DNA of 64,000 nt from Dyella jiangningensis (GTDB lineage Bacteria; Pseudomonadota; Gammaproteobacteria; Xanthomonadales; Rhodanobacteraceae), in NCBI GenBank assembly GCA_000632805.1, contig CP007444.1, positions 1,798,001 to 1,862,000 of the forward strand, in the 5' to 3' direction. Both the position numbers and the translations under genes were made by a program. A model generated the notes under the pieces. The model was given only the letters and a program-made list of their open reading frames with translations, was not told where the DNA came from and searched no databases. Positions 25,174-47,008 of this stretch are shown here, piece by piece (the stretch's first letter is position 1; every line of letters begins with the position of its first letter).

Positions 25174-25953
25174 TCAATTGCCCAGGGATGGTGTCGGCCG
25201 ATGGGCCAGTGCTTCCGACACTTCGTTGGCCGCATCGACCAGCAGGCGCGTCGTGGTGGCGATGTTCATCGCGGAGCCGCGGCGCTCGATGAAAGGAATG
25301 GTCATCGCGCTCGTGGCCCGGCCGTGCTGCATGACCGGCGCGGAGATGTCGGTGACGCCGTCGACCACCTGGCTGGCGATGGTCGCGAAGCCGGCCGCGC
25401 GGATGCCGCTGATGGCCTTGTCGATCGGTGCGCGCTGCAACTGGGGCTCGTGCGCGATCATCATGGTGAACCAGCGTTCGCGCGTTTCGTCGTCCTGCCA
25501 TGCCAGCAGCACATGGCCCGAAGCGGAATGGGAAATCGGGCGTCGATGACCCACGCGCACCACCAGGCCGATTTCGCCAGGCGGGTCGACGCGCGCAATC
25601 ACCACGATCTGCTCCTGCGAAGGCACTACAAGGTGGCAGGACTGGTCAATGTCGTCCGCTAGCCTATGCATGATGGGCAGGGCGGTTTCCACCATGCTCT
25701 TGACCGGTGGCTGCTCCATGCCGAGGCGGAACAGGCGTGGCGTGAGCGAGTAGCGTCCTTCACCATCCGGACGGCTGATGTAGTCGCGTTCTTCCAGCAC
25801 CTGCAGCATGCGAAAGATTTCCCCGCGCGAACGCCCCACGCCCTCGGAGATCTCGGCGATGGTCAGCGGCGAGACGGCCCGCGCCAGCAACTCGAGGATG
25901 TCCAATCCCTTGTCGAGGGCGGGTGCGCGATATTTGGGAGACTCTGCGGCCAT
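25174..25953 (-). CDS. IclR-family transcriptional regulator of the fucose regulon
   Basis: 259 residues starting at MAAESPKYRAPALDKGLDILELLA (25953). N-terminal winged helix (about 10-70: TIAEISEGVGRSRGEIFRMLQVLEERDYI) and a C-terminal IclR effector domain (about 80-250: HLVVPSQEQIVVIARVD, PISHSASGHVLLAW, ISAPVMQHGRATSAMTIPF). It is divergent from the fucose permease gene, and the shared intergenic region contains the same 14-base motif as the control region of the catabolic and glycosidase operons. It is therefore the best candidate regulator, probably a repressor released by fucose or a pathway acid; the effector is inferred. Confidence 0.9.
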   Translation of the reverse strand: MAAESPKYRAPALDKGLDILELLARAVSPLTIAEISEGVGRSRGEIFRMLQVLEERDYISRPDGEGRYSLTPRLFRLGMEQPPVKSMVETALPIMHRLADDIDQSCHLVVPSQEQIVVIARVDPPGEIGLVVRVGHRRPISHSASGHVLLAWQDDETRERWFTMMIAHEPQLQRAPIDKAISGIRAAGFATIASQVVDGVTDISAPVMQHGRATSAMTIPFIERRGSAMNIATTTRLLVDAANEVSEALAHRPTPSLGN

Positions 25954-26048
25954 GGGCGTCCCTGGAATGAAGTGGCTCGTCGAACGGAGCAGCGATGACA
26001 TGTGGGTGTTCGCTTACGGCCCGCGAAGGAACATGCTGCACTGCAACT

Positions 26049-26092
26049 TGTTATACAGGTAAATTATAAGTTCATATTTGCACACCTGTCGC
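26049..26092. promoter_or_regulatory. Divergent iclR/fucP promoters with a shared IclR-type operator motif
   Basis: AT-rich island in GC-rich DNA. Minus strand: GCGACA (26092-26087), 18-base spacer, TATAAT (26068-26063). Plus strand: TTGTTA (26049-26054), 18-base spacer, CATATT (26073-26078). Between and over them: CAGGT (26056-26060) and ACCTG (26084-26088) arms, and on the minus strand TGTGCAAATATGAA (26084-26071). That 14-mer recurs with two changes upstream of the fucose catabolic operon (34469-34482). An operator overlapping both promoters would allow autoregulation. The boxes are seen; binding is inferred. Confidence 0.6.
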
Positions 26093-26140
26093 GCCCGGTG
26101 CACTAGGGCCGCATTCGCCAATCGCCGGAGGATGACATCT

Positions 26141-27442
26141 ATGCACCCACAACCCGCGTCGACAACGGCGGGTGGTTCCTTGCGCGGCAGCACGCCCCTG
26201 CTGCCCCTGGCTTTGATCGTAAGTCTTTTCTTTCTCTGGGGCGTAGCCAACAACCTCAACGACGTGCTGGTGGCGCAGTTCAAGAAGGCCTTCACGCTGT
26301 CCGATTTCCAGGCGGCGCTGGTGCAGAGTGCGTTCTATCTCGGCTATTTCATCGTGGCGCTGCCTGCGGGCGCGTACATGCGGCGCTACGGTTACAAGTC
26401 GGCGGTGCTGTTTGGCCTGGGCCTGTATGGCGTCGGCGCCTTGCTGTTCTGGCCGGCGGCGGCCTACGCGACATATGGGATGTTTCTGGCGGCACTCTTC
26501 GTGATCGCCTGCGGGTTGGCTTTTCTCGAGACCTCGGCCAATCCCTATGTCACGCTGCTGGGGCCCGCGTCGTCGGCGGCTGCGCGGCTCAACCTCGCCC
26601 AGGCCTTCAACCCCTTGGGCTCAATCGCCGGCGTGCTCATCGGGCAGCATTTCATCTTCACCGGCGTGGAGCACACGCCCGGCGAAATGGCGGCCATGAG
26701 CGCTGGCGCGCACGAGGCCTTCATGAAGAGCGAGGCTGCCGCGGTGCAGCTGCCGTATCTGGTGATCGGGCTGGGCGTGCTCGCGTGGGGCCTGGTGATC
26801 TGGATGACGCGGTTTCCTTCCGTGGCGCATCGTGAGGAAGGCGCCCCGCCGTCGCGCGCCGTGCTCGGACGGCTGCTGCGCGATGGGCGCCTGCTCGGCG
26901 CAGTCGCGGCGCAGTTCTTCTACGTGGGCGCGCAGGTCGCCGTGTTCAGCCACATGATCCGCTACGCCCAGGCGACCATGCCGGGCACGTCGGCAAAGGA
27001 TGCTGCCGGCTTCGTGACGGCGGGCCTGGTCTTTTTCATGGTGGGCCGCTTTGCCGGTGCCGCCTTGATGAAGCACCTGAAGGCGTCGCGCGTGCTGGCG
27101 CTGTTTGCGCTGGCCAATGTGGTGCTGATGGCGGTGGCGGCGTTTGTGCCCGGCCACGCGGGCATCTATGCACTGGTGGCGTCGAGCTTCTTCATGTCGG
27201 TGATGTATCCGACCATCTTCGCGCTGGGCGTGGAGGGCAAGGGTGATGACGAACGCAAGTTCGCGGCGGCCTTGCTGGTGATGGCCATCATCGGTGGCGC
27301 CGTGCTCACCGCGGCCATGGGCGTGGCTTCCGATCGCGTCGGCATTGCGCACGCGATGCTGGTGCCGGCCGTCTGCTTCATCGCGATTCTTCTGTTTGCC
27401 CAGCAGCACTGGCAGCGTGCGACGGCCGGGGTGACCGCATGA
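26141..27442 (+). CDS. fucP: L-fucose:H+ symporter, MFS family
   Basis: 433-residue inner-membrane permease of the FHS (fucose-galactose-glucose) subfamily of the major facilitator superfamily. Start at 26141 because GGAGG at 26127-26131 is correctly spaced; an ATG 9 bases earlier is too close to it. Visible FucP-family features: SLFFLWGVANNLNDVLVAQFKKAF in helix 1, FYLGYFIVALPAGAYMRRYGYKSAV, GLAFLETSANPYVTLLG and LNLAQAFNPLGSIAG. Twelve hydrophobic segments are evident. It imports fucose freed by the exported glycosidases. Its stop overlaps the mutarotase start (ATGA). Confidence 0.92.
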   Translation: MHPQPASTTAGGSLRGSTPLLPLALIVSLFFLWGVANNLNDVLVAQFKKAFTLSDFQAALVQSAFYLGYFIVALPAGAYMRRYGYKSAVLFGLGLYGVGALLFWPAAAYATYGMFLAALFVIACGLAFLETSANPYVTLLGPASSAAARLNLAQAFNPLGSIAGVLIGQHFIFTGVEHTPGEMAAMSAGAHEAFMKSEAAAVQLPYLVIGLGVLAWGLVIWMTRFPSVAHREEGAPPSRAVLGRLLRDGRLLGAVAAQFFYVGAQVAVFSHMIRYAQATMPGTSAKDAAGFVTAGLVFFMVGRFAGAALMKHLKASRVLALFALANVVLMAVAAFVPGHAGIYALVASSFFMSVMYPTIFALGVEGKGDDERKFAAALLVMAIIGGAVLTAAMGVASDRVGIAHAMLVPAVCFIAILLFAQQHWQRATAGVTA

Positions 27443-27789
27443 CCTGGCAATGCCTGGCGCTTGACCTGCGCGACGACCCCGCGCTCATCGCCGAATACGA
27501 GCGCTGGCATCGGCGCGAAAACATCTGGCCGGAGATCGTGACCTCCATTCGCGAGGCCGGCATTCTCGACCTGCAGATTTTTCGCACCGGCACGCGGCTG
27601 GTGATGCTGATGCGCGTGTCGCCCGATTTTGACGCTGACGCCAAGGCTGCGGCAGACGCGGCCAGCGAGCGCGTGCAGGCATGGGAGGCTTTGATGTCCA
27701 CCTTCCAGCAGCCGTTGCCATGGGCTGGGGCGGGGCAGAAGTGGGTGCCGATGCAAAGGATTTTCGACCTGGCCGAGTGTGCCGGGTGA
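27439..27789 (+). CDS. L-fucose/L-rhamnose mutarotase (RhaM/DUF718 family)
   Basis: 116 residues, family length about 105-115. Opens with LALDLRDDPALIAEYERWHRRENIWPEI and ends PMQRIFDLAE, the layout of the RhaM-type mutarotases, with the catalytic His expected in ERWHR. It interconverts alpha and beta anomers of the imported sugar; next to fucP the substrate is probably L-fucose, as for the related protein in the Xanthomonas campestris fucose pathway. Its ATG overlaps the fucP stop in an ATGA, so it is translationally coupled. Confidence 0.88.
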   Translation: MTWQCLALDLRDDPALIAEYERWHRRENIWPEIVTSIREAGILDLQIFRTGTRLVMLMRVSPDFDADAKAAADAASERVQAWEALMSTFQQPLPWAGAGQKWVPMQRIFDLAECAG

Positions 27790-27810
27790 CACGTTGGTGT
27801 AGCCGCTTCA

Positions 27811-28317: not shown

Positions 28318-29463
28318 TCAAGCGCTGCGCCAGATCACGTCGCGCGAAATGCGCGAGGCGTCGCGTTGGCCAGTGAGTGCCATGGTGACGCTCAGCTCGC
28401 GACGGATCAGCTCGATGGCTTGCGTTACGCCTTGCTGCCCGTTTGCACCGAGGCCATAGAGAAATGCTTTGCCGATGAGTCCGGCGCGTGCGCCGAGGGC
28501 GAGTGCCTTGAGCAGGTCCTGGCCGCTGGTGATGCCGCTGTCGAAAAGCACTTCTGTCTTGCCTTGGACGGCATCGACGATCGCGGGCAGGACATCGATG
28601 GTGCCGGGTGTGCCGTCGAGCTGTCGTCCGCCGTGGTTGGACACGACAATGGCGTCGACGCCGTGCTGCACCGCGAGGCGCGCGTCCTCCGGATCAAGGA
28701 TGCCCTTGACGATCAGCTTGCCCGGCCATTCCTCGCGTATCCACGCCAGGTCGTTCCAGTTCAAGGTGGGATCGAACTGGCTGGCGATCCATTGCGCGAG
28801 GGTGGTCAGGCTATCGGCGCCGCCGATGCGGCCTTCGAGGTTGCCGAACGATCGGCTGGGCGCCTTGAGCACATTCCACGCCCAGCGCGGCTTGCTGGCG
28901 ATGTCGAGCAGGTTGCGCAGCGTGACCTTGGGCGGCACCGACAGGCCATTCTTGATCTCGCGATGCCGCTGTCCCTGCACGGTGAGATCAGCAGTCAACA
29001 TCAGCGCCGAGCATTGCGCTGCACGGGCGCGCCGGATCAGCTCGCGGGTGAAGCCGCGGTCGCGCATGACGTAGACCTGGAACCAGAACGGCGTGTCGCA
29101 CGCGGCGCGCACCTGTTCGATTGAGCAGATGGACATCGTGCTGAGGCAGAACGGAATACGCGCCTCGGCGGCCGCGCGTGCGCCGAGGATCTCGCCGCTG
29201 CCATGCTGCAGGCCGGTCAGTCCGGTGGGTGCGATGGCGAGCGGCATGCTGACCGCTTGGCCGAGAAGGGTGGTCGCCAGCGAGCGATTGTCCACGTCCA
29301 GCATGACGCGCTGCCGAAGCTGCAGGCGGTCGAGCGAGCGACGGTTCTCGCGCAATGTCGCTTCATCGTACGAGCCGCGGTCGGCGTATTCGAAGAACGC
29401 GCGGGGCACCCGCCGGCGAGCGATGGCGCGCAGGTCGGCGATGTTCGTCACTGGCGTTTTCAT
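28318..29463 (-). CDS. lldD: FMN-dependent L-lactate dehydrogenase / alpha-hydroxy-acid oxidase
   Basis: 381-residue TIM-barrel flavoenzyme that oxidises L-lactate to pyruvate and feeds electrons to the respiratory chain. Family marks: N-terminal FFEYADRGSYDEATLREN, PLAIAPTGLTG, FWFQVYVMRDRG, LIVKGILDPEDARLAVQHGVDAIVVSNHGGRQLDG with the catalytic His, and LFDSGITSGQDLLKALALGAR. It is the last gene of the fucose operon, 3 bases after fuconate dehydratase. Oxidative fucose catabolism yields pyruvate plus L-lactate, so this placement explains itself. A different alpha-hydroxy acid is possible but less likely. Confidence 0.9.
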   Translation of the reverse strand: MKTPVTNIADLRAIARRRVPRAFFEYADRGSYDEATLRENRRSLDRLQLRQRVMLDVDNRSLATTLLGQAVSMPLAIAPTGLTGLQHGSGEILGARAAAEARIPFCLSTMSICSIEQVRAACDTPFWFQVYVMRDRGFTRELIRRARAAQCSALMLTADLTVQGQRHREIKNGLSVPPKVTLRNLLDIASKPRWAWNVLKAPSRSFGNLEGRIGGADSLTTLAQWIASQFDPTLNWNDLAWIREEWPGKLIVKGILDPEDARLAVQHGVDAIVVSNHGGRQLDGTPGTIDVLPAIVDAVQGKTEVLFDSGITSGQDLLKALALGARAGLIGKAFLYGLGANGQQGVTQAIELIRRELSVTMALTGQRDASRISRDVIWRSA

Positions 29464-29466
29464 GGT

Positions 29467-30786
29467 TCACCCCATCGCGGTCTTGGGAGCGCTCTTCCAT
29501 ACGATGCCATCGGGAAACAGGTGGTCGCGCACCGAGTCTTCATGCATGCGGGCGGAGAAGCCGGGGGCCCTGGGTGCAAGGTAACGCCCCGCGGCGATCG
29601 TCACCGGTTCTTCGAAGTGCTCATGCAGGTGGTCGACGAACTCGATCGCCCGATCCTCCTTCTTGCCCGTAATGGCGACGAAATCGGCCATGGCCAGATG
29701 CTGCACCAGCTCGCACAGGCCCACCCCGCCGGCATGCGGAAACACGCGCACGCCAAAATGGGCGGCCAGCAGCAGGATGGCCAGATTCTCGTTGACGCCG
29801 CCGACACGGGCCGCGTCGATCTGGATCAGGTCGATGGCCTGCGCCTGCAGCAGCTGCTTGAAGAGTACGCGGTTCTGCCCGTGCTCGCCGGTGGAGATGG
29901 GGATGGGCGACACGCCCTGGCGGATGGCGGCGTGGCCGAGCACGTCGTCGGGATTGGTCGGCTCTTCGACCCAGGCGAGGCCGATGTCCTTCAAGGGCTT
30001 GAGCCACTCGATGGCCGTCTGGACGTCCCAGCGCTGGTTGGCGTCGACGGCAATGGCGACGTCGGGGCCCACGGCTTCGCGCGCGAGCCGGCAGCGGCGC
30101 AGGTCGTCTTCCATGCGCAGGCCGACCTTGAGCTTGATGGTGCGAAAGCCATCCGTCACGGCCTTGCGGGCGAGGCGCTGCATCTTTTCGTCGGAATAGC
30201 CCAGCCAGCCGGGCGACGTGGTGTAGGCGGGATAGCCCTCGGCCTCCAGCTGTGCAATGCGCGCCTGCTTGTGCGGCTCGGCGTCACGCAAAATCGCCAG
30301 CGCCTGTGCGGGCGTGAGCGCATCCGTGATGTAGCGAAAATCGATCTGGTCGACCAATTGCTCGGGCGTCATGTCGGCAATGAAGCGCCACACGGGCTTG
30401 CCTGCCATGCGCGCGGACAGGTCCCACGCGGCGTTGATGACGGCGCCGATCGCCATGTGCATCACGCCTTTCTCGGGGCCGAGCCAGCGCAGCTGCGAGT
30501 CGCCCGTCAACTGGCGCGCGAAAGCGCCCAGGTCGTTGGCGATCTCGGCCACGTGGCGCCCGACGACCATGGGGCGCAGCGCCGCGAGCGCAGCGGTCTC
30601 GATCTCGTTGCCGCGGCCGATGGTGAACACCAGCCCGTAGCCGGCCAGGCCGTCGGCTGCATCGGTCTTCAGTACGACGTACGCGGCGGAGTAGTCCGGG
30701 TCCGGGTTCATGGCGTCCGAGCCGTCGTGCGCCAACGACGTGGGAAAGCGCACGTCGTATGTTTCCAGGGCCGTAATTTTCACCAT
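29467..30786 (-). CDS. L-fuconate dehydratase (enolase superfamily)
   Basis: 439 residues, matching the ~440-residue length of the characterised Xanthomonas campestris enzyme. Converts L-fuconate to 2-keto-3-deoxy-L-fuconate. Enolase-superfamily residues: Lys pair in [10 protein letters not shown], metal ligands in [19 protein letters not shown] and STGEHGQN, and the late catalytic His in [16 protein letters not shown]. The N-terminus [28 protein letters not shown] is typical of this family. It follows the diketo-acid hydrolase after 53 bases and precedes lldD. Confidence 0.93.
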
Positions 30787-30839: not shown

Positions 30840-31697
30840 TCAGGCGCGCGATGCGGGATGGGCGAGCACGTCCTGCCGCTGCTGCCCGAGGCCTTCGATG
30901 CCCAGTTCGATGACGTCGCCGGGTTTCAGGTAGGTCGGTGGATGCAAGCCCAGGCCGACACCGGCAGGCGTGCCGGTGCTGATCACGTCGCCCGGCATCA
31001 GTGTCATGTAACGGCTGATATAGCTCACCAGGTGGGCCACGCCGAACACCATCGTGCGGGTGTTGCCGTTCTGGTAGCGATGGCCGTTTACTTCGAGCCA
31101 GAGCGAGAGGTTTTGCGGGTTGGGCACATCGTCTTTGGTGACCAGCCACGGACCGATGGGGCCGAAGGTGTCGCAGCTCTTGCCCTTCACCCATTGGCCG
31201 CCGTGCTCCAGCTGGAATTCGCGCTCGGACACATCGTTGATCACGGCGTAGCCGGCCACGTAGTCGAGGGCATCGTCGATGGAAACATCGCGCGTCACTT
31301 CGCCGATGATCACCCCCAGCTCCACTTCCCAATCGGTCTTTACCGAGCCGCGCGGAATGACGATGGCGTCGTTGGCGCCGCCGATGGCCGTGGTCGCCTT
31401 CATGAAAAGCACAGGCTGCTCGGGCACCGGCGCGTTGGTTTCGGCGGCATGGTCGGCGTAGTTCATGCCCACGCAGAGCATCTTGCCGACGTGCGCCACG
31501 GGCGTGCCGAAGCGCGGCTTGCCTTCGACGAAGGGCAGGGTGGAAGGATCGAGCGCAGCCAGCTTTCGCAGACCTTCGCGACTCAGCACATCGGCGTTGA
31601 TGTCGTCGATGGCGGCGGAGAGGTCGCGGATCGCACCATCACGATCGATCAGGCCGGGCTTTTCCGCGCCGGGTTCTCCATAACGGCAAAGTTTCAT
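30840..31697 (-). CDS. 2,4-diketo-3-deoxy-L-fuconate hydrolase (FAH superfamily)
   Basis: 285 residues, the usual length. Start at MKLCRYGEPGAEKPGLID (31697); upstream codons overlap the dehydrogenase gene and were excluded. Fumarylacetoacetate-hydrolase fold with metal ligands in DWEVELGVIIGE and YAVINDVSEREFQ, plus GKMLCVGMNYADHAAET and STGTPAGVGLGLHPP. It cleaves the diketo acid to pyruvate and L-lactate, the last step of the non-phosphorylating fucose route. 13 bases after the SDR gene. Confidence 0.9.
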   Translation of the reverse strand: MKLCRYGEPGAEKPGLIDRDGAIRDLSAAIDDINADVLSREGLRKLAALDPSTLPFVEGKPRFGTPVAHVGKMLCVGMNYADHAAETNAPVPEQPVLFMKATTAIGGANDAIVIPRGSVKTDWEVELGVIIGEVTRDVSIDDALDYVAGYAVINDVSEREFQLEHGGQWVKGKSCDTFGPIGPWLVTKDDVPNPQNLSLWLEVNGHRYQNGNTRTMVFGVAHLVSYISRYMTLMPGDVISTGTPAGVGLGLHPPTYLKPGDVIELGIEGLGQQRQDVLAHPASRA

Positions 31698-31710: not shown

Positions 31711-32457
31711 TCAGTTCGACCAACCACCATCCACGACGTGGATGGTGCCGGTGGTAAAGGACGATTCGTCGGAGGCGAGGTAGAGCGCGAGCGCGGCGAT
31801 TTCCTCGGGTTCACCCAGTCGACCCATCGGCTGGCGCGAGGTGAAGCCGCGCCAGGCGGCTTCCTCGTCGCCGCCCAGGGCGCGCACGCGTTCGGCAAGC
31901 GAGGGTGTCTTCACCGTGCCGGGGCAGATGGCGTTGCAACGGATGCCTGCCGCCACGTAATCGGCGGCAATGGCGCGCGTCAGTCCGATCACCGCGGCCT
32001 TGGTGGCGCCGTAGGCGAAACGGTTCGGCACGCCCTTGATGCTCGATGCCACCGAGGACATGTTGATGATGCTGCCGGCGCCGCGCGCGATCATGCCCGG
32101 GAGCAGGGCGCGGCAAAGGTGGAACATGCTGTCCACGTTGATGGCGAACGAGCGCCGCCAGCTTGCGTCGTCCGTATCGAGGATCGTGCCGGCATGCACG
32201 TAGCCGGCGCAGTTGAACAGCACGTCGACGCGTTCGACGGCTTCTGCCAGCGACTGGATCGCCGTCGCGTCGGTGACGTCGAGGATGCGCGTGCTGATGC
32301 GCGAATGGCTGCCCGCCAGCGTGGCGAGACTTTCTTCGTGGATGTCCGTCGCCAGCACCGTGGCGCCGGCTTCGGCGAAGGCGAGGGCCGTGGCGCGACC
32401 GATGCCTGCGCCGGCGGCCGTCACGAGGGCGTGCTTGCCTGCCAGGCGGCCGCTCAT
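31711..32457 (-). CDS. 2-keto-3-deoxy-L-fuconate 4-dehydrogenase (SDR)
   Basis: 248-residue NAD-dependent short-chain dehydrogenase. Start at ATG 32457 ([18 protein letters not shown]); a GTG three codons upstream is an alternative. Cofactor motif [12 protein letters not shown] (residues about 80), catalytic Ser in NMSSVASS, YxxxK in YGATK, and the closing VVDGGWSN. It oxidises 2-keto-3-deoxy-L-fuconate to the 2,4-diketo acid. Its ATG overlaps the TGA of a 17-codon mini-frame that itself overlaps the fuconolactonase stop. Confidence 0.9.
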
Positions 32458-32507
32458 GCCTTGCACTCGGCGTGGGTTGACATGGAGCTCATGACACAGG
32501 TGTTCAT
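32454..32507 (-). CDS. 17-codon coupling mini-ORF in the fucose operon
   Basis: Reads [17 protein letters not shown] then TGA. Its ATG overlaps the fuconolactonase stop (ATGA, 32504-32507), is preceded by TTAGGGAGAACGGC (a good ribosome site inside the fuconolactonase end), and its TGA overlaps the SDR start (ATGA, 32454-32457). It probably hands ribosomes from one gene to the next. A peptide function cannot be claimed. Confidence 0.4.
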
Positions 32508-33353
32508 GCCGTTCTCCCTAATGCCGTCGTGCGGCCGTGGAGTGAGTAGATGGAGGTGGCGTTGCCGCCGAACACGGCCGCCTCGTGGCGTGGCGCAAAA
32601 CGGCGCACCAGCGCCTGCGCGCGGGCTTTCCACTGTTCATAGGTGGCGTGCGTGGTGACTACGGGCCAGTCGCTTCCCCACATCACGCGCTGGCCGCCGA
32701 AGCTTTCGAAAACGTGGGCGACAAACGGCTCGATGGCGGTGGCGTCGCTGCCTGGCGCAGTGAGCGTGAGCAGGCCCGACAGCTTGCAGGCGACATCGGG
32801 CACCTGGGCGACACGCGCGATGGCACTGGCCCATGCCGCGAATTCCCGGTCGGCGATGTTGGGCTTGGCGGCGTGATCCACGACCGTGATCAACCCGGGA
32901 TGGCGCGTGAGTCGATGCGACAGCGCGCGCAGGTGCCGGTTGTCCACCAGTGCGTCAAAGACGAGGCCGTGATCGCGCAGGCAATCGAACGCGCGATCGA
33001 GCGAAGGGCGCGCCAGCCACTCCGTATCCGGAATGTCCTGCACCATCGGGCGGATGCCGCACAGCAGCCCCTTGCCCCCGCTCGATGAGTTCTTCGATGC
33101 GCTGCGTGGCGTCGTCCGCTTCCATCTCCACCCAGCCGACGACGCCCAGCACACCTTCGGTCTGCCGCGCCAGGTCGAACAGGAACAGCGTTTCGCGCTC
33201 GTCCGGCGCGGCCTGCACCAGAATGCACGCGTCCCGAATCGCGCCGATGTCGGGCGGCAGGAAACTGCATTGCAACGCGGCCGGCGCGTGCGCCAGCCAG
33301 CCGTACTCCAGTCGCGATGGGTCCCAATAGTGGCGATGCGCGTCGATGATCAC
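32504..33353 (-). pseudogene. L-fuconolactonase, frameshifted by one base
   Basis: Amidohydrolase-family lactonase turning L-fucono-lactone into L-fuconate. It starts with GTG at 33353 (VIIDAHRHYWDPSRLEYGW; the stop of the preceding gene overlaps in GTGA) and reads normally to RIEELIERG. There a run of five C (33076-33080, plus strand) throws it out of frame. With four bases the protein continues KGLLCGIRPMVQDIPDTEW and runs cleanly to GWGSDWPV-type and GGNATSIY motifs (MWGSDWPVVTTH, FGGNATSIYSL) and the stop at 32504. All other features, including metal-site HRHYW and VVDHAAKP, are intact. Either a homopolymer sequencing error or a real, possibly reversible, inactivation of one pathway step. 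Confidence 0.88.
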
Positions 33354-34375
33354 GGCACGGGCACTCCCGCCTCGATCAGCCCGGCTTCCGCCAGCGCCGT
33401 CCATGTGGCGGCCGGAACCCTTTCGCGAATACGTTCGACGGCGCTGTCGACTTCGGCGCTGGAGCGCAGTCCGCACACGACCTTGGCCACGGCCGGATGC
33501 GCCATGGGAAATTGCAGTGCCGCCGCGCCCACGCTTGCGCCCGTGTGCGCGCAAACGTCATAGAACTGCTGCGCGCGCGCCTTGATGGCTGGCGGCGCCG
33601 GTGCGTAGTCATAGGTGTCGCCCGGGCCTGCATCCGAGCCGAGCAGGCCGGAGTTGTAGGGGCCGGCGATCAGTACGGACACGCCTTCGGCCTGCGCTTT
33701 CGCCATGACGGCCCTGCTGTGCGACTGCTCGAACAGCGTGTAACGACCGGCGAGCATGATGGCGTCCAGCGGAAAACGCTGCATCACTTCCAGGCAGACC
33801 GCCTCTTCATTGACGCCAAGGCCAATGGCGCCGACGACGCCCTGGTCGCGCAACTCGGCCATGGCCGGTAATGCTTCGTTCAATGCCTGGGCGAGCACCT
33901 GCGGATGGCGCGGGCCATGCGTGAGCTCGCCGATGTCATGCAGCAGCAGCAGATCGATGCGCCCGGTGCGCAGTCGACGGAGGCTGCTTTCGAAACTGCG
34001 GAGTACGCCGTCGCGCGTGTAATCGAAATAGGCACGGCGCCCGTCCACGGCAAAACCATCGCTGCGATCGTGCCGATCCTGGTCGACGTCGATGAGTCGC
34101 CCCGCCTTGGTCGAGAGCGTATAGGTGGCCCGGTCGATGCCTGCGAGGGCGTCGCCGATGCGGGTCTCGCTGAGCCCGTAACCGTAATAAGGAGCGGTAT
34201 CGAAATGCCGGATGCCTTCGCGCCAGGCGTGCCCGATCGCGTCGCGGGCGTCCGCATCGTTCACGCCCGTATACAGGTTGCCGGCCGGCGCCCCGCCAAA
34301 GGCGAGTGAGGCGAGCCGTGCCGTGCCCGCGTCAGGCTTGCCGGATGGATCCTGGTCGTGGTGCTGAACCGGCAT
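33350..34375 (-). CDS. L-fucose 1-dehydrogenase (aldo/keto reductase)
   Basis: 341-residue NAD(P)-dependent aldo/keto reductase of the D-threo-aldose 1-dehydrogenase type. Start at MPVQHHDQDPSG (34375). Active-site parts: FDTAPYYGYGLSE with Asp and Tyr, STKAGR with Lys, LLLLHDIGE with His. LAFGGAPAGNLYTG and VLIAGPYNSGLLG are typical of fucose/galactose dehydrogenases of this group. It oxidises L-fucose to the lactone and is the first gene of the catabolic operon, reading away from the divergent promoter at 34468-34507. Confidence 0.88.
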   Translation of the reverse strand: MPVQHHDQDPSGKPDAGTARLASLAFGGAPAGNLYTGVNDADARDAIGHAWREGIRHFDTAPYYGYGLSETRIGDALAGIDRATYTLSTKAGRLIDVDQDRHDRSDGFAVDGRRAYFDYTRDGVLRSFESSLRRLRTGRIDLLLLHDIGELTHGPRHPQVLAQALNEALPAMAELRDQGVVGAIGLGVNEEAVCLEVMQRFPLDAIMLAGRYTLFEQSHSRAVMAKAQAEGVSVLIAGPYNSGLLGSDAGPGDTYDYAPAPPAIKARAQQFYDVCAHTGASVGAAALQFPMAHPAVAKVVCGLRSSAEVDSAVERIRERVPAATWTALAEAGLIEAGVPVP

Positions 34376-34467: not shown

Positions 34468-34507
34468 TTGTGCACATATAAAAACTAGGTTTATATATGA
34501 TCGTCAA
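34468..34507. promoter_or_regulatory. Overlapping divergent promoters and operator of the fucose and glycosidase operons
   Basis: AT-rich island. Plus strand: TTGTGC (34468-34473), 17-base spacer, TTATAT (34491-34496). Minus strand: TTGACG (34507-34502), 18-base spacer, TTTTAT (34483-34478). A near-perfect palindrome with arms CATATAAAAAC and GTTTATATATG around TAG occupies 34475-34499. TGTGCACATATAAA (34469-34482) matches 12 of 14 bases of the motif in the iclR/fucP region. One bound dimer could block both promoters. Confidence 0.65.
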
Positions 34508-34647
34508 GACGAGGCGTGATTTCGGCGCTCCGCACCGTGATTCCGCGCACGGCCGCAACCCGGCCGGCTCGCCCGAATCGCGCGCAAGCGCTTGGTTTCT
34601 CGACACATGGGCCCGGGCAGGGCATGCCCGATAGTGGGGATGAAGCG

Positions 34648-35709: not shown

Positions 35710-35785
35710 TGACGTGCCCGACGACAGGGTGTCGCGCATCGATGGATGCCATGTCGTCGACGTGTTCCGGTGAGGTCGCGCAGTG

Positions 35786-39546: not shown

Positions 39547-40601
39547 AACGTTGGATGTTGTTCGCCCTGTCCCTGTGCCTCGGACTGGTGTCGTCAGGCG
39601 CCTTTGCCAAGGCGCCGACGGCGCTGTTCTACATGATGGAAACGCAGAAATCGATCAACTCGTTCGAGGCGCACATCGACAAGATCGACCTGCTCGTTCC
39701 CACGTGGTTCGGCGTGGACGAGAACGGCCTGGTGTCGGGCGCGCCCAACATGTACGTGCTGAACCTGGCCAAGGCACATCGCCTGGCGGTGATGCCGATC
39801 ATTTCCGCCGGCGGCGACCGCAAGAAGTTCCACGAGCTGCTGACGAACGAAACGGCGAAGAAGGCCATGATCAGCGGCATGATCGAGCAGGCCAGGCTGT
39901 ACGGCTTCACGGGCTTCCAGTTCGATTTCGAGAACATTGCCTGGACCGATCGGGATGCGCTGACCTTGCTGACGCGACAGACTGCCGAGGCGCTGCACAA
40001 GCAGGGGTTGAAGCTGTCGATGGCGGTGGTGCCCAATGCGCCGGGCTACGCGGGCCGCGGCCCGTTCGGCAAGTGGATGTGGGAATACTGGCGCGGCGCC
40101 TATGACCTCAAGGCGCTGGGCCAGGCGCTCGACCTCGTCTGCCTGATGACCTACGACCAGCACACCCGCTGGACCACGCCGGGCCCGGTGGCCGGCATGC
40201 CGTGGGTGATGGACAACCTGCAGTACGCGCTGAAGCAGGTGCCGAAGGAAAAGCTGTCGCTGGGCATCGCGCTCTACGGTTATCACTGGTTCGCCGGCGA
40301 TCCAGTGGGCGAGGATGGCAAGGAGAAATCGAACATCTCTGCGCAGTACATCGATGCCGACGAATCGTTTCCGCTCGCCAAGCAGTTCAACGCGACCATG
40401 CAGTGGGATCCGGTCGAGCACGAGTCATGGTTCTACTTCTATCGCGACCAGATGCGCGAATGGGTGTTCCTGCCTGACGCCCGCGCATTCCGCGATCGCT
40501 ACGACGTGGTCAAGCAATACGGCCTGGAAGGCTTCTGCGCATGGGTGCTGGGCGCGGAAGATCCGAAGGTATGGGAGGAGCTGCCCGATGCCGTTCGCTG
40601 A
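39543..40601 (+). CDS. Exported GH18 glycosidase (chitinase / endo-N-acetylglucosaminidase fold)
   Basis: 352 residues. Start at MKRWMLFALSLCLGLVSSGAFA, a signal peptide, at 39543; a long open frame upstream overlaps the fucosidase and was rejected. GH18 catalytic motif FTGFQFDFENI (about 121-131) has the DxxE-type acid Glu. LDLVCLMTYDQH and the C-terminal GFCAWVLGAEDPKVWE match family strands. It resembles the compact single-domain GH18 enzymes that cut chitobiose cores (ENGase or YaaH-like) rather than large chitinases. In this context release of N-glycans is the favoured role, but chitin fragments are possible. Confidence 0.85.
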   Translation: MKRWMLFALSLCLGLVSSGAFAKAPTALFYMMETQKSINSFEAHIDKIDLLVPTWFGVDENGLVSGAPNMYVLNLAKAHRLAVMPIISAGGDRKKFHELLTNETAKKAMISGMIEQARLYGFTGFQFDFENIAWTDRDALTLLTRQTAEALHKQGLKLSMAVVPNAPGYAGRGPFGKWMWEYWRGAYDLKALGQALDLVCLMTYDQHTRWTTPGPVAGMPWVMDNLQYALKQVPKEKLSLGIALYGYHWFAGDPVGEDGKEKSNISAQYIDADESFPLAKQFNATMQWDPVEHESWFYFYRDQMREWVFLPDARAFRDRYDVVKQYGLEGFCAWVLGAEDPKVWEELPDAVR

Positions 40602-42909
40602 TGTTCGACGACACGCCGCGCAGGGCATGGCCCTGGTCTGCCTGCTCGCCTTTGCTTGCGGCGCGCAGGCGGCCACGCCATCGATCATTCCCTTGCCAGC
40701 CAAGATGACGGTGGAGCAGGGCAGCTATACGATCAGCTCCGCGGCCGTCATCCATGTGAGGCCTGGCGATCGCGCCGCGGCTGACGCAGCGCGCTATCTC
40801 GCCGATCTGCTGGTGCGTACGCGCGGACTTTCGTTGCCGGTGGTCGAGGATGCATCGGCAGCGAGCCGGGGCGACATCGTGATCCGCAGCGACGCGGCCG
40901 CTAGTGTTTCGCAGGCGGAGGGTTATGTGCTCGACGTCGATGCGCGCGGGATGGATATCCGTGCGCGTGACGCCGCTGGCCTGTTCTATGGCGCGGTCAG
41001 TGCCTGGCAGCTGCTGACGCCCGACGCCGCCAAGGGCGCCGTCGCGGTGCCTTATGTGCACATCGCGGACTGGCCGCGTTTCGCCTGGCGCGGCCTGATG
41101 CTCGACGTCGCGCGCCACTTCGAACCACCCGCCGAAGTGAAGCGCGTGCTGGATGCCATGGCGCAGCACAAGCTCAATGTCTTCCATTGGCACCTCACCG
41201 ACGACCAGGGCTGGCGCCTGGAGATTCGCCGTTATCCCAAGCTGACGCAGATCGGTGCATGGCGACAGCCGCCCGGTGCCGATGCCAAACCCTACGGCGG
41301 CTATTACACGCAGGCCGAAGTGCGCGACATCGTCGCCTACGCTGCTGCACGCCATATCACCGTCGTGCCCGAGATCGACATGCCCGGCCACGCACAGGCC
41401 GCCGTGGCGGCGTACCCCGAGATCGGCGTGACCGGCGAACGCCCGGTGGTATCGATCGACTGGGGCGTGAACCCGTATCTCTTCAACGTCGACGACCGGA
41501 CGATCAGCTTCCTGCACAACGTGCTGGACGAGGTGATGGAGCTGTTTCCGTCCACCTTTATCCACGTGGGCGGCGATGAGGCGATCAAGGACCAGTGGCA
41601 GGCATCGGCCGCCGTGCAGGCACGCATGCATTCGCTCGGCATCAAGGACGAGAATGCGTTGCAGAGCTGGTTCATCGAACGCATGGGGCAATACCTCGCG
41701 CAGCACGGCCGGCGGTTGATCGGCTGGGACGAAATCCTGGAGGGCGGCATACCGCCATCCGCTTCGGTAATGTCGTGGCGAGGGACCCAGGGTGCGATCG
41801 ATGCAGCGCGCCTTGGGCATGATGTGGTGCTGTCGCCGGCGCCGACGCTCTATCTCGACAACCTGCAAAGCGCCCGGGACGATGAGCCGTCCGGACGCCT
41901 GTCGGTGCAGTCGCTCGCGACCGTCTACCATTTCGAGACCGTGCCGGCGAGCCTGTCTGCCGAGCAGGCCAGGCATGTGCTTGGCGCGCAGGCCAATATC
42001 TGGGCCGAATACCTCAATGCGCCATGGCAGGTGGAGCACGCGGCGTTCCCGCGCATGGATGCTCTCGCCGAGACGGTGTGGACCCCGGCGAACGAACGTC
42101 ACTACGACGACTTCCTCGCGCGGTTGCCCGCGCAGTTCAGTCGCTACGACCAGCTGGGCATTACCTATGCGGACAGCGCGTTCGCCGTGGGCATGCGGGC
42201 GCAGCCGTCCGTGGGCAAGGCCCGCAAGGTCGTGGTGGCGCTTAGCGCACAGGAGCCTTCCGCCACCATCCGTTACACCACGGACGGCAGCGTGCCGGGG
42301 CCGCAGTCGCCGGTCTACCGGCAGCCCATCGATCTCGCGCTGCCGGCCACCGTCAGCGCCACGTCGTTCGCCGCGGATGGGCGGCAACTGGCGCGCGTGC
42401 GTACCGAGCGCTTTGACGCCAGCACGCTTGGCATCATCGATGGCAGCGGCTTCGAGGGCTGCCCCACGGGCGGCCTTGGCGTGCGCGTGCCGTTGCTGCC
42501 AGATGCGACCGCACCAGCCCCGGTCTACGACGTCGATGTGATCAGCAGCTGCTGGAAACTGCCGCAGGTGTCGCTGGATGGCGCCTCCACGATCACCATC
42601 GACGGCGCCTGGCTGGCCCGCAACTACGGCCTGGCGGGTGACGCGTCGAAGGTCGTGTCCCGCGCGGCGCGCACGCCCGCTGGTGAGCTGGAAGTGCACG
42701 TCGATCGTTGTGATGGGCCGCTGGCGGCAAGCCTGCCGTTGCCGGCGAAGACGACGCCAGGCACGACCTTCCATCTCACCACGGCGTGGCCGGCGCACAC
42801 GGGCAAGCATGATCTCTGCGTGTTCTCCACGGCGCCGATCCACGGGTCGCTGTCCGCCATCGGCCGCGTATCGTTTGGCGCCTCGTCGACATCGGGCGCA
42901 ACGCCATGA
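40588..42909 (+). CDS. Exported GH20 beta-N-acetylhexosaminidase
   Basis: 773 residues from ATG 40588, placed by GGAGGAG at 40574-40580 and overlapping the GH18 gene by 14 bases. Signal peptide GMALVCLLAFACGAQAAT. An N-terminal GH20b domain (about 30-155), then the TIM barrel (WRGLMLDVARHFEP, FHWHLTDDQGWRLEI, VPEIDMPGHAQA) with the catalytic pair in FIHVGGDEA (D-E about 330). A C-terminal extension (about 540-773) with a chitobiase-like beta-sandwich follows (TIRYTTDGSVPG). It removes terminal GlcNAc or GalNAc. Its stop links to GH3 through an 8-codon mini-frame. Confidence 0.93.
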   Translation: MPFADVRRHAAQGMALVCLLAFACGAQAATPSIIPLPAKMTVEQGSYTISSAAVIHVRPGDRAAADAARYLADLLVRTRGLSLPVVEDASAASRGDIVIRSDAAASVSQAEGYVLDVDARGMDIRARDAAGLFYGAVSAWQLLTPDAAKGAVAVPYVHIADWPRFAWRGLMLDVARHFEPPAEVKRVLDAMAQHKLNVFHWHLTDDQGWRLEIRRYPKLTQIGAWRQPPGADAKPYGGYYTQAEVRDIVAYAAARHITVVPEIDMPGHAQAAVAAYPEIGVTGERPVVSIDWGVNPYLFNVDDRTISFLHNVLDEVMELFPSTFIHVGGDEAIKDQWQASAAVQARMHSLGIKDENALQSWFIERMGQYLAQHGRRLIGWDEILEGGIPPSASVMSWRGTQGAIDAARLGHDVVLSPAPTLYLDNLQSARDDEPSGRLSVQSLATVYHFETVPASLSAEQARHVLGAQANIWAEYLNAPWQVEHAAFPRMDALAETVWTPANERHYDDFLARLPAQFSRYDQLGITYADSAFAVGMRAQPSVGKARKVVVALSAQEPSATIRYTTDGSVPGPQSPVYRQPIDLALPATVSATSFAADGRQLARVRTERFDASTLGIIDGSGFEGCPTGGLGVRVPLLPDATAPAPVYDVDVISSCWKLPQVSLDGASTITIDGAWLARNYGLAGDASKVVSRAARTPAGELEVHVDRCDGPLAASLPLPAKTTPGTTFHLTTAWPAHTGKHDLCVFSTAPIHGSLSAIGRVSFGASSTSGATP

Positions 42910-42932
42910 CCCGCGCGGTTGCATGGCGATGA
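42906..42932 (+). other. 8-codon stop-start relay between GH20 and GH3
   Basis: ATG at 42906 overlaps the GH20 stop (ATGA) and reads MTRAVAWR before a TGA that overlaps the second possible GH3 start (ATGA, 42929-42932). The arrangement repeats the one at 32454-32507 and suggests reinitiation coupling, not a peptide. Confidence 0.35.
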
Positions 42933-45520
42933 AGCGGGTGAAACGTCGAGGTGCGATCGCCGGCATGGCTGGCGCCTGGTTGCTGGCCACCGCCGTGTCG
43001 GCATGGGGCGACAACGATCACGCGACGGAGCAGGCGCGCCGTCTCGTGGCGCAGATGACGCCTGCGGAAAAAATCGCGCAACTGCAAAGCGCGTCACCTG
43101 CGATTCCACGGCTGAACCTGCCGGCCTACGAGTGGTGGAGCGAAGGCCTGCATGGCTTCGCACGTGATGGTGAAGCCACTGTCTTCCCGCAGGCGATCGG
43201 TCTGGCCGCCAGTTGGGATCCCGCCCTCCTGCATGCCGTGGGCGGCGTGGTGGCGGCGCAGGCGCGCGACAAGTTCCTGGCTACCGGATGGCGCAAGGAT
43301 CATGGCCGCTACAACGGCCTCACCATCTGGTCGCCCAACATCAACATCTTCCGCGATCCCCGCTGGGGGCGAGGGCAGGAGACCTATGGCGAAGATCCAC
43401 ACCTGACGGCAACCCTCGGCGTCGCGTTCATCGAGGGCTTGCAGGGTGACGACCCGGAGCATCCCACGGTCATCGCCACTCCCAAGCACTTTGTCGTGCA
43501 CTCGGGGCCGGAGCCGGGGCGCCACGGTTTCGACGTGGATGTTTCCCCGCACGATCTGGAGGATACGTATCTTCCGGCCTTTCGTGCGGCCATCGTGGAT
43601 GGACATGCCGGCTCGATCATGTGCGCCTACAACGCCATCCATGGCGTGCCGGCATGCGCGTTGCCGTGGTTGCTTGGTGAACGGCTTCGCGGCGATTGGG
43701 GCTTCAAGGGGTTCGTCGTCACCGATTGCGATGCGGTGGACGACATGACGAAGTTCCATTACTACCGCAGGGACAATGCCGGTTCGTCGGCAAGCGCGCT
43801 GCGCGCAGGCACGGATCTCAATTGCGGCACGGCCTACGACGGGCTGCGCGCGGCGCTGGCCGATCGGCAGATCACCCAGGACGACCTTGACGTGGCAGCA
43901 ATCCGCCTGTTCGCGGCGCGCTATCGACTGGGCATGTTCGAAGCCTCGGCGCCAAAGCCGCGTGTCGATCCGGCGGCGCAAACGGCACTCGCGCTGCGCG
44001 CGGCCGGCGAATCCATCGTGCTTCTCAAGAATCGCGCGGACACCTTGCCCCTGAGGCCGGGCATGCGCATCGCCGTCGTCGGGCCCAATGCGGATGCCTT
44101 GTCCGTGCTGGAGGCCAACTATCACGGTACCGCGCGTCATCCCGTGACGCCGCTGGACGGCATGCGTCAGCAGTTTGGTGCGCAACGGGTGCGCTATGCG
44201 CAAGGGGCGACGCTTGCCCAGGGCGTGCCCGTGCCCATTCCCGTTACAGCGCTGCGCAGCGCTCCAGGCGCTTTCGGCCTGAAAGGCGAGTACTTTCGTA
44301 GCGCAGACCTGTCCGGCAAGCCAGTGACGACGCGCATCGATGCGAAAGTCGACATGGACACGGATCACGCATCGCCGGCAAAAGGCCTGGGCGATTCGAG
44401 TTACGCCGTGCGCTGGTCGGGACAGCTGCTGCCGCCGGGTCCCGGTGATTACACCTTGTCCGTGCGCGTCGACCGCTGCTTCGACTGCCGCGCACACGAC
44501 CCGGTGCGCCTGTACCTGGACGGCCGATTGATTTCCGCCACCGAAGGCAGCGAAGAGCCGGCAGCGGCGAACGTCCATTTTGCGGATACGCAACCGCATG
44601 ATGTTCGGCTGGAGTGGCAGCACAGCGGCGAGGACCAGGGCATCCATCTGCAATGGATGGCCCCGGCGGATGCGCAGCTGGCGGAGGCCACGCGTGCGGC
44701 CAGCGACGCCGACGTCGTGGTGGCGTTCGTGGGACTGTCACCGGATATCGAAGGCGAGGAACTCAAGGTCGATGTCCCCGGCTTCCTGGGCGGCGACCGC
44801 ACCGACATCGGGCTGCCGCCGGCGCAGCGCAAGTTGCTCGAGACCGTGTCCGCCAGCGGCAAGCCGCTCGTGGTGGTCTTGATGAGTGGAAGTGCCGTGG
44901 CCATGACCTGGGCCAAGGACCACGCGGACGCGATACTTGCGGCCTGGTATCCGGGTGAGCAGGGCGGTGTCGCCATCGCACAGACGCTTGCAGGCGCGAT
45001 GAACCCCGCCGGCCGCGTGCCGGTGACCTTCTATCGCGATGCGCGCGACCTGCCGCCATTCATCGATTACGGCATGAAGGGGCGCACGTATCGCTATTTC
45101 GATGGCGAGCCGTTGTATGCCTTCGGTGACGGCTTGAGCTACACGACCTTCTCCTATGCCGCACCCGCTCTGTCCGCCACGCAATTGAAGGCTGGCGACT
45201 CACTGGATGTCACCGTGAATGTACGCAACACGGGCACGCGTAGCGGGGACGAGGTGGCGCAGCTGTATCTTGCGTACCCCGGCGTCGCTGGTGCACCGCG
45301 ACGTGCCTTGGTGGGCTTTCAGCGCATAGCGCTGGCGGCGGGAGAGCAGCGCGCCGTGCGATTCCACCTCGATGCACGCGCCTTGAGCCTTGTCGACGCC
45401 GATGGCGTTCGCACCGTGAGAGCGGGGCGCTATGAGTTGTATGCAGGCGGGCGCCAGCCTGCAGTGGGGCAGGTGCCGGCAGCGTTCACCATTACCGGGC
45501 AAGCTGGCGTGCCGCGCTGA
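42923..45520 (+). CDS. Exported GH3 beta-glycosidase with PA14 domain (xylosidase/glucosidase)
   Basis: 865 residues from ATG 42923 (or 863 from 42929); the longer frame upstream overlaps GH20. Signal peptide with AGMAGAWLLATAVSAWG. GH3 N-domain with YEWWSEGLHGFARDG, NINIFRDPRWGRGQETYGEDP, KHFVVHSGPE and nucleophile Asp in GFVVTDCDAVDD (about 270). A PA14 sugar-binding insert (about 452-580: GLKGEYFRSADLSGKP) interrupts the C-domain, and a fibronectin III-like domain ends it. YEWWSEGLHG is typical of the xylosidase-type clade; the nix cluster of Xanthomonas includes a GH3 beta-xylosidase acting on plant N-glycans. Last gene of the operon. Confidence 0.9.
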   Translation: MAMKRVKRRGAIAGMAGAWLLATAVSAWGDNDHATEQARRLVAQMTPAEKIAQLQSASPAIPRLNLPAYEWWSEGLHGFARDGEATVFPQAIGLAASWDPALLHAVGGVVAAQARDKFLATGWRKDHGRYNGLTIWSPNINIFRDPRWGRGQETYGEDPHLTATLGVAFIEGLQGDDPEHPTVIATPKHFVVHSGPEPGRHGFDVDVSPHDLEDTYLPAFRAAIVDGHAGSIMCAYNAIHGVPACALPWLLGERLRGDWGFKGFVVTDCDAVDDMTKFHYYRRDNAGSSASALRAGTDLNCGTAYDGLRAALADRQITQDDLDVAAIRLFAARYRLGMFEASAPKPRVDPAAQTALALRAAGESIVLLKNRADTLPLRPGMRIAVVGPNADALSVLEANYHGTARHPVTPLDGMRQQFGAQRVRYAQGATLAQGVPVPIPVTALRSAPGAFGLKGEYFRSADLSGKPVTTRIDAKVDMDTDHASPAKGLGDSSYAVRWSGQLLPPGPGDYTLSVRVDRCFDCRAHDPVRLYLDGRLISATEGSEEPAAANVHFADTQPHDVRLEWQHSGEDQGIHLQWMAPADAQLAEATRAASDADVVVAFVGLSPDIEGEELKVDVPGFLGGDRTDIGLPPAQRKLLETVSASGKPLVVVLMSGSAVAMTWAKDHADAILAAWYPGEQGGVAIAQTLAGAMNPAGRVPVTFYRDARDLPPFIDYGMKGRTYRYFDGEPLYAFGDGLSYTTFSYAAPALSATQLKAGDSLDVTVNVRNTGTRSGDEVAQLYLAYPGVAGAPRRALVGFQRIALAAGEQRAVRFHLDARALSLVDADGVRTVRAGRYELYAGGRQPAVGQVPAAFTITGQAGVPR

Positions 45521-45572
45521 TTGCGCCGGCCGGGACGCAGCGCCATGCATCGATCTCGACGCACATGGCTGG

Positions 45573-45591
45573 CCCCGGCATGCTGCCGGGG
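45573..45591. terminator. Stem-loop between convergent GH3 and GH29 genes
   Basis: CCCCGGCA-TGC-TGCCGGGG, a perfect 8-bp stem, lies between the GH3 stop (45520) and the stop of the convergent GH29 gene (45641). No T tract follows on either strand, so termination is plausible but unproven. Confidence 0.45.
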
Positions 45592-45640
45592 CGGTCACCC
45601 GGTGTCCGGCGCGCGGACGTTGCCTCGTGCCTGCAGCAAC

Positions 45641-47008
45641 TCAGCGCGAAGGCAGCGCGGCCGCGTTGAACACCTGGAACTCGCGTATGGATGCATCGCC
45701 CACGCTGGAAAGGATGTTCAGGCGCACCCGTTGGGCCGTGACCTTGGGAAACACATCGATCTTCATGTGGCCGATGGCTTCGGCGCCGGCGACCGGGCGC
45801 CAGCCCTTGCCGTCGAACACTTCGATCGCGTACTTGCGCACGTGCTGGCCATCGTCCAGCCACTCCATGGCGAGCGTGCGATCGAACGTCACGGGGCGCC
45901 CGAAATCCACTTCGATCGTTGCGTGTCGCGAACCGGCGGGCGCGGACCAGAAGGTGTCCTTGTTGCCGTCGAGTGCCGCCTCGGTGTTGTCGTCCGTCGC
46001 CACGTGATGACGGGCCAGGTTGCTGGCATCGCCATAGCGCTCGCGCAATGCCTTGCCAAACGCGTCGAGTCGCGCGACATCGGCATCCGGGAGACGGCCG
46101 TGTCGATCCGGCGCAATGCCCAGCATCAGCTGGCCGCCGCGCCCGACGCTGTTCTCCCAGGTGTCCACGAGCTTCGCCACGCTCTTGAGCGTGCCCTCGT
46201 CGTTCGGGTGCCAGAACCAGTGCAGGTCATGCAGCGGCGTATCCACTTCGACCGGGCGCCAGCGCTCATAGCCATGGCGGTCGATGACATTCCAGTTCTC
46301 GCCGCGGATGTAGCCGTCCTCCTGGCCCACCCAGCGGATATCCCCGTACTCGAACAGCCCCATGTCGGCGAATACCATGGCATTCGCCTGGTAGGTGCGC
46401 AGCGTTTCGATGTAGCGGGGAAAATCATAGACATGCCCGGCGCTGCCTGCGCCATCCAGCCACCACTCCACGAGCGGCCCGTAGTGCTGCGCCAGCTCCT
46501 CGACCTGCGCCTGGTAGTAGGCGTCATACGCTTTCGGATCGTGGTAACGCGGTTCGTGCCGATCCCACGGCGAGAGATAGACGCCAAACTCGAGGCCTTC
46601 GGCGCGCGCCGCATCCGACGCAAGCTTGACCAGGTCGCCCTTGCCACCCATCCACGGGCTGCTTTTCACCGAGTAGTCGCTCTGGGCCGTCGGGAACAGG
46701 GCAAAGCCATCGTGGTGCTTGGCCACCATCACCATGTACCGCGCTCCAGCGGCACGGCTCGCCCGCGCCCATTGCGCCGTATCCACGTGGTCGGGATTGA
46801 ACACCTTGGGGTCCGCGGTGCCGTCGCCCCATTCGCGGTCGAGAAACGTGTTTGTGCCGAAATGCACGATGACGCCGAACTCGAGATCCTGCCAATGGAT
46901 CTGCTGCGGGGATGGCCTGATGTCTGACGCACTCTGCGCCACGGAAGTCGCGGGGAGGAAGGCGCACGCCATGGCGGCACCCAGTAGGGATCGGTGGAGT
47001 CGATTCAT
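45641..47008 (-). CDS. Exported alpha-L-fucosidase, GH29, with C-terminal CBM32-like domain
   Basis: 455 residues from MNRLHRSLLGAAMACAFLPATSVAQ (47008), with AAAGGCAAG upstream. Short GH29-B-type layout: HFGTNTFLDREWGDG, MVMVAKHHDGFALF, nucleophile Asp in LVEWWLDGAGS (about 184). A C-terminal F5/8-type beta-sandwich (about 335-455; DNTEAALDGNKDTFWSAP, ATIEVDFGRPVTF) would bind sugar. GH29-B enzymes usually prefer branched alpha-1,3/4-fucose on GlcNAc, as in Lewis structures, so this enzyme may complement the GH29 at 37915. It is transcribed alone toward the glycosidase operon. Confidence 0.9.
   Translation of the reverse strand: MNRLHRSLLGAAMACAFLPATSVAQSASDIRPSPQQIHWQDLEFGVIVHFGTNTFLDREWGDGTADPKVFNPDHVDTAQWARASRAAGARYMVMVAKHHDGFALFPTAQSDYSVKSSPWMGGKGDLVKLASDAARAEGLEFGVYLSPWDRHEPRYHDPKAYDAYYQAQVEELAQHYGPLVEWWLDGAGSAGHVYDFPRYIETLRTYQANAMVFADMGLFEYGDIRWVGQEDGYIRGENWNVIDRHGYERWRPVEVDTPLHDLHWFWHPNDEGTLKSVAKLVDTWENSVGRGGQLMLGIAPDRHGRLPDADVARLDAFGKALRERYGDASNLARHHVATDDNTEAALDGNKDTFWSAPAGSRHATIEVDFGRPVTFDRTLAMEWLDDGQHVRKYAIEVFDGKGWRPVAGAEAIGHMKIDVFPKVTAQRVRLNILSSVGDASIREFQVFNAAALPSR

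Follow-up and report, generated by a model that had tools for sequence, protein, structure and literature searches.

A locus at positions 25174–47008 of a 64,000-nucleotide stretch of Dyella jiangningensis DNA (GenBank assembly GCA_000632805.1, contig CP007444.1, positions 1,798,001 to 1,862,000 of the forward strand; hereafter, the window) joins L-fucose catabolism to a set of glycoside hydrolases (GH). It is rather probable that this locus handles the fucose and the antennae as one half of a plant N-glycan utilisation system of the nix type, placed under a fucose regulator. The observations behind this explanation are the gene families, their conserved order, a second locus on the same chromosome and a conserved palindrome shared by several promoters. 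The system is real and conserved, of the nix kind but rewired, being joined to fucose catabolism and apparently controlled with it. An earlier inspection of the window (the sequence-only reading) had proposed that fucose catabolism was joined here to exported glycosidases acting on fucosylated glycans bearing N-acetylglucosamine (GlcNAc), and this was supported. Being a single-locus reading, it misjudged the system, because half of the enzymes, like the receptors, are encoded at other places on the chromosome.

The regulon, the candidate operator and an enzyme swap stand out clearly and lend themselves to testing; no new biochemistry is shown. For the fucose-linked use of N-glycans in soil Gammaproteobacteria, the analysis provides a named regulon with a concrete candidate operator. 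It also presents a rewired form of a cluster known in Xanthomonas, and singles out the NixF-type GH18 and the Dyella GH2 as enzymes with directly testable specificities. In the open-licence literature on IclR, fucose and Xanthomonadales, or on Dyella fucosidase, no title was found describing the arrangement.

Family calls were made with Pfam and NCBIfam scans of the locus proteins, and the nearest solved relatives are Protein Data Bank (PDB) matches. The genome of the window is designated G000; L004, L005 and L006 are Dyella sp. EPa41, D. kyungheensis and D. japonica, retrieved with a GH2 search of named genomes. Other G numbers denote genomes of the same order, from the same family as G000 (f1) or from another family (f2).

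Gene Content of the Locus

The limits of the locus and every gene family named in the sequence-only reading were confirmed by Pfam and NCBIfam. A gene for an IclR-family protein, the proposed fucose regulator (25174..25953, minus strand; Pfam HTH_IclR and IclR_C), adjoins fucP, which encodes an L-fucose:H+ symporter (26141..27442, plus strand; TIGR00885 above cut-off) and is followed by a fucose/rhamnose mutarotase gene (27439..27789, plus strand; Pfam rhaM). The IclR gene adjoins fucP in 13/13 fucose loci with a readable gap.

The minus-strand fucose operon comprises six genes. By context, they would start with an L-fucose dehydrogenase of the aldo/keto reductase (AKR) family (33350..34375; Pfam Aldo_ket_red), an L-fuconolactonase (32504..33353; Amidohydro_2 in its C-terminal part), a 2-keto-3-deoxyfuconate dehydrogenase of the short-chain dehydrogenase/reductase (SDR) type (31711..32466; Pfam adh_short_C2) and a 2,4-diketo-3-deoxyfuconate hydrolase of the FAA family (30840..31697; Pfam FAA_hydrolase). 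There follow an L-fuconate dehydratase of the enolase superfamily (29467..30786) and a protein of the flavin mononucleotide (FMN) L-lactate dehydrogenase type (28318..29463; FMN_dh; NF008398 above cut-off). The best solved relatives of the dehydratase are named L-fuconate dehydratases (2hxt, 1yey and 2hne, E about 1e-223), which we take to come from X. campestris. No NCBIfam model was above cut-off for the FAA hydrolase, the AKR, the GH2 or the dehydratase, nor for the SDR among the best 25 matches listed, and the second GH29 had no NCBIfam match at all.

Concerning the oxidative fucose route, said earlier to be complete, all the families of the non-phosphorylating pathway (dehydrogenase, lactonase, dehydratase, SDR and hydrolase, plus the fucose permease) were found at the locus, but the lactonase is not intact here, its parts sitting in two different frames. 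In each of L004–L006 it occupies a single open frame of 283 codons, and the break is possibly a sequencing error. This and the joined glycosidases are what sets the locus apart from the known pathway.

The divergent operon, on the plus strand, contains glk, for a glucokinase-family sugar kinase (34624..35709; Pfam Glucokinase; NF009073 above cut-off), a GH2 of 711 amino acids proposed as a beta-galactosidase (35783..37918; Pfam GH2 domains), GH29a, NixE-like and proposed as a core alpha-1,3-fucosidase (37915..39546; Pfam), a NixF-like GH18 of the YaaH/SleL type (39543..40601; Pfam), a GH20 beta-hexosaminidase (40627..42909; Pfam) and a GH3 with a PA14 domain (42929..45520; Pfam), proposed as a beta-xylosidase since its top two PDB matches are beta-xylosidases. 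Beyond it, on the minus strand, lies GH29b (45641..47008; Pfam), with an F5/8C domain and of the alpha-1,3/4-fucosidase type by its best PDB matches. All six glycosidases have N-termini that by eye resemble export signals, so they are apparently exported. The same gene order is kept in Dyella sp. EPa41 (whose contig stops before fucP), D. kyungheensis and D. japonica, and the arrangement is therefore not due to chance.

Kinship with the Nix Cluster

The nix cluster is described in PMC5700972 as having a TonB receptor gene and nine hydrolase genes; in its X. citri table, nixE (alpha-L-fucosidase) immediately precedes nixF (COG3858 hydrolase), and nixL (beta-galactosidase, COG1874) comes later. 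A review (PMC10154630) lists NixE among the GH29 enzymes it tabulates. As in the nix cluster of X. campestris and X. citri, GH29a of the window is followed directly by a GH18-type hydrolase, and orthologs of the window GH29a, GH18, GH20 and GH3 stand in the nix-like order of three f2 genomes (G101, G141 and G061, the first two of them seemingly Xanthomonas-like) with 56–72% identity, that of GH29a being 70–72%. The proposed kinship with nix is thus upheld by gene order and identity. Unlike the nix cluster, the window locus has no mannosidase, receptor or GH35, its GH2 differs, it contains an extra Lewis-type fucosidase (GH29b), and it is coupled to fucose catabolism, with which it has a palindrome in common.

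Three layouts were found outside Dyella. In G145 and G130 (f1), one island contains IclR, fucP, mutarotase, fucose operon, glk, TonB receptor and the glycosidases GH29a, GH18, GH20, mannosidase-type GH2, GH3, GH125 and GH29b, with GH92 and GH35 in addition in G130. In G074 and G135 (f1), the fucose genes, receptor, GH29a, GH18, GH29b, GH35, GH3 and GH20 are together and GH2-GH125-GH92 are located elsewhere, as in Dyella. In the three f2 genomes, receptor, GH29a, GH18, GH20, GH2, GH3, GH125, GH92 and GH35 form a cluster without fucose genes, the fucose operon being far off or on a different contig.

The receptor adjoining GH29a belongs to one ortholog group in 7/7 of these other nix-like loci. 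A comparison of this slot at E ≤ 1e-30, covering the window, L004–L006 and the seven other loci, located the Dyella GH2 there: it is present in 4/4 Dyella loci and in 0/7 of the others. At the same threshold neither the slot receptor nor GH35 was detected in the window or in L004–L006 (in the own genome, the search for GH35 was confined to the window), while GH35 occurs in 6/7 of the other loci, the exception being G145 within the 46 kb read around its locus. The closest counterpart of the slot receptor in the own genome is a 35% match. The GH2 may have taken over the role of GH35 in Dyella.

The distribution was determined in 151 genomes of the order, the own included. GH18 (E ≤ 1e-30) was present in eight, five in f1 and three in f2, all of them among the 17 with fuconate dehydratase (E ≤ 1e-100) and also among the 17 with GH125. 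The probability of 8/8 within 17/151 is 4e-9 assuming independent genomes, which these are not; counted by genus (5/5 within 14/64), it is 3e-4.

Mannosidases and Receptors Elsewhere in the Genome

The reported absence of mannosidases holds for the locus and not for the genome. GH92, GH125 and mannosidase-type GH2 are missing from the window cluster and occur instead in a second locus (C1:3451.6–3467.1 kb) composed of GH92, TonB receptor, GH29, glk, GH92, GH125 and a GH2 with Ig domains of the beta-mannosidase type. The genome search for GH92 and GH125, suggested earlier as a check, gave six and one matches, respectively. GH29a and the GH29 of the second locus share 59% identity, and the GH29s of G101, G145, G130 and G074 are 69–82% identical to the window copy versus 59–61% to the second-locus copy. 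Likewise, a TonB receptor is lacking in the locus, as had been stated, but not in the genome, which has the second-locus receptor and a distal one (C1:1764270–1767284) preceded by a near-match to the palindrome considered below. There is also one gene of the PNGase-A family, unlinked to the locus.

In contig C1 of G000, positions 320001–340000 are identical to 5372005–5392004, and 38001–50000 to 5090001–5102000. Both pairs share an offset of about 5,052,004 and concern the first and last about 345 kb. The last part of the contig is probably a copy of the first, through an untrimmed circle or a duplication. This may account for the contamination figure of 8.39%; the window lies outside the repeated stretch.

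A Shared Palindrome as Candidate Operator

A comparison by eye of the gaps between genes in eight loci gave the motif TRAAN7TTYATATNTG. Exact copies occur at only two places of the 5.4 Mb genome, both in this locus: in the IclR/fucP gap (26060..26080, plus strand) and in the divergent gap between the fucose operon and glk (34473..34499, exact on both strands). A reversed-motif control gave 0 matches in the genome scan, and the expectation for the window is 0.02. Allowing one mismatch added three rows at two places, of which C1:1767681–1767707 lies about 400 bp upstream of the distal TonB-receptor gene. The candidate operator is thus shared by fucP, the fucose/glk gap and the distal receptor, the second GH29 being excluded.

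With up to one mismatch, the palindrome was present in the IclR/fucP gap of 13/13 loci in which this gap was read (window, L005, L006, G074, G135, G145, G130, G101, G141, G061, G111, G053 and G080), and as a single copy between the divergent genes in 8/8 loci where both units are fused (window, L004–L006, G074, G135, G145 and G130); the agreement is partly built in for the eight loci used to construct the motif, and independent for G101, G141, G061, G111, G053 and G080. At one mismatch, it was absent from the 40-kb nix-like regions of the three f2 genomes, where only the fucose locus has it, and from the loci in which G074 and G135 keep their mannosidases. Orthologs of the distal receptor (E ≤ 1e-150) have the palindrome within about 140–440 bp upstream in L004, L005, L006, G074 and G130, that is, in 5/6 relatives with an ortholog. 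A second element, GTTGCANYGCARCTTG, accompanies the distal-receptor palindrome in 4/6 cases, the own included.

One type of site described for the IclR family is TGRAACAN1-2TGTTYCA (PMC8222616), and by analogy the A/T-rich palindrome fits with sites of this family. In Campylobacter jejuni the IclR-family regulator FucR also adjoins a fucose operon (PMC12566272). It is described there for that operon, whereas the Dyella protein is proposed to include glycosidases and a TonB receptor among its targets.

The sequence-only reading had considered three transcripts as one regulon. Two of them do share the palindrome; GH29b has a different conserved one, a GGACGTnnnnACGTCC-like element immediately upstream of its start (47033..47047, minus strand), so one regulator for all three is not supported. 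This element was seen by eye in six loci, the window copy having one mismatch; candidate roles for it are those of an operator and of an RNA hairpin close to the start codon. A genome scan for it as the mark of a wider regulon led to rejection of that idea: the two other exact copies are inside one gene, counted twice through the repeated stretch.

Could the fucose and glycosidase operons be independent neighbours, the palindrome serving the fucose operon only and the glycosidases following another signal, e.g., GlcNAc? In the three f2 genomes the two units are far apart or on different contigs; moreover, G080 and G053 have the palindrome ahead of the AKR gene of their fucose operon although this GH operon is not there. 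On the other hand, GH18 lies no more than about 10 kb from the fucose operon in 5/5 f1 genomes having GH18, one palindrome stands between the two divergent genes in every fused locus, and the distal receptor has it as well. Independence of the two operons is therefore considered improbable.

Target Glycan and Enzyme Specificities

Plant N-glycans, xyloglucan and arabinogalactan had been listed as substrates. Families GH74, GH31 and GH95 are markers of xyloglucan utilisation loci. None of them was among the locus proteins scanned (elsewhere in the genome they were not searched), so plant N-glycan is favoured and xyloglucan was rejected as the main target.

A broader alternative is that the target is some other fucosylated polymer, such as arabinogalactan protein, xyloglucan or a fungal or bacterial exopolysaccharide, the nix-derived enzymes having been repurposed after the mannosidases and receptor left. 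This would agree with the lack of slot receptor and GH35 in Dyella, with the different kind of GH2, whose homologs in 2/3 Acidobacteria neighbourhoods examined adjoin genes of the rhamnosidase type and beta-helix genes (a fourth contig was too short for a neighbourhood reading), and with a palindrome that the mannosidase locus does not share. It agrees less well with the nix order retained by GH29a, GH18, GH20 and GH3, with GH125 in 8/8 GH18 genomes, with the missing xyloglucan markers and with the suitability of GlcNAc-bearing glycans for GH18 and GH20. Such a target seems unlikely, though less so than independent operons.

A plant N-glycan as target is also in line with the two Dyella loci together containing the families of the plant N-glycan pathway of Bacteroides massiliensis, where the order is antennary GH29, GH2 beta-1,3-galactosidase, GH20, GH92, GH3 beta-1,2-xylosidase and core GH29, likewise distributed over several loci (PMC9522356). 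That pathway begins with a type II PNGase and SusC/D loci; in Dyella the PNGase-A-family gene is unlinked and fucose catabolism is linked. PNGase H+ is an N-glycanase described from D. japonica (PMC7348039).

As to the individual enzymes, the FDFE motif of GH18 is kept in 11/11 orthologs of the alignment. Its predicted structure has modest confidence (mean pLDDT 69.6), with the chitinase 5jh8 and SleL as top Foldseek ranks and no GH18 endoglycosidase in the best 50 matches listed for this model. NixF has been assigned to the GlcNAc-GlcNAc bond (PMC5700972), and a 2023 review states that no GH18 or GH85 acting on plant N-glycans had been described (PMC10154615). The nearest solved relatives of the GH2 are of the glucuronidase type. 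The NxK motif is a marker of that type, and in the alignments with three such structures its segment is replaced in the GH2, so that the candidate function of glucuronidase was rejected.

It seems reasonable to interpret these data by the following scheme, in which we infer the specificities, the export, the IclR protein as binder, the inducer and the order of steps. GH29b would take off antennary fucose, GH2 galactose and GH20 antennary GlcNAc. The second-locus mannosidases (GH92, GH125 and GH2) would trim the core jointly with GH3 as xylosidase and GH29a as core fucosidase, and GH18 would cleave the chitobiose core. L-Fucose would enter through FucP and be oxidised via fuconate to pyruvate and L-lactate by the minus-strand operon. 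The IclR protein may bind TRAAN7TTYATATNTG in front of fucP, in the divergent promoter region of the fucose and glycosidase operons and upstream of the distal TonB-receptor gene. If it binds all three palindromes, fucose or a fucose product would induce import and catabolism jointly with part of the deglycosylation. A more specific version is put forward tentatively, as something short of an even chance: that a fucose-responsive IclR protein captured a plant N-glycan cluster, freed fucose thereby signalling to a dispersed regulon (distal receptor, fucose oxidation and core-directed glycosidases), with the NixF-type GH18 opening an alpha-1,3-fucosylated chitobiose core.

Several points weigh against this scheme. 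Control is not unified, because both GH29b and the own mannosidase locus are without the palindrome, the latter at up to 2 mismatches. A further one-mismatch copy is present in G000 at C1:1482300–1482320; the distal-receptor ortholog of G145 has no palindrome in the stretch read, and G135 has no such ortholog at the threshold used. GH18 is missing from 9/17 of the GH125 genomes and from 9/17 of the fuconate-dehydratase genomes, three other genomes of the same genus are without GH18 and dehydratase (two of them have GH125), and PNGase A is present in only 4/8 GH18 genomes. To these are added the broken frame of the lactonase, the Acidobacteria neighbours of the GH2 homologs, and the nearest solved relatives of GH29a, which include an exo-alpha-L-galactosidase beside a fucosidase.

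Two minor observations concern the fucose operons themselves. In G053 (L100 11305–12555) and G080 (L101 10405–11715), both of f1, a different GH29, with 31–34% identity to GH29a, is inserted between the dehydratase and the mutarotase of the fucose operon; the recruitment of fucosidases by fucose operons seems therefore to have been repeated. In the window, the gap between the mutarotase and lactate dehydrogenase genes (27815–28267) contains two copies of a 79-nt repeat, 78% alike and rich in GCGCAC/GTGCGC.

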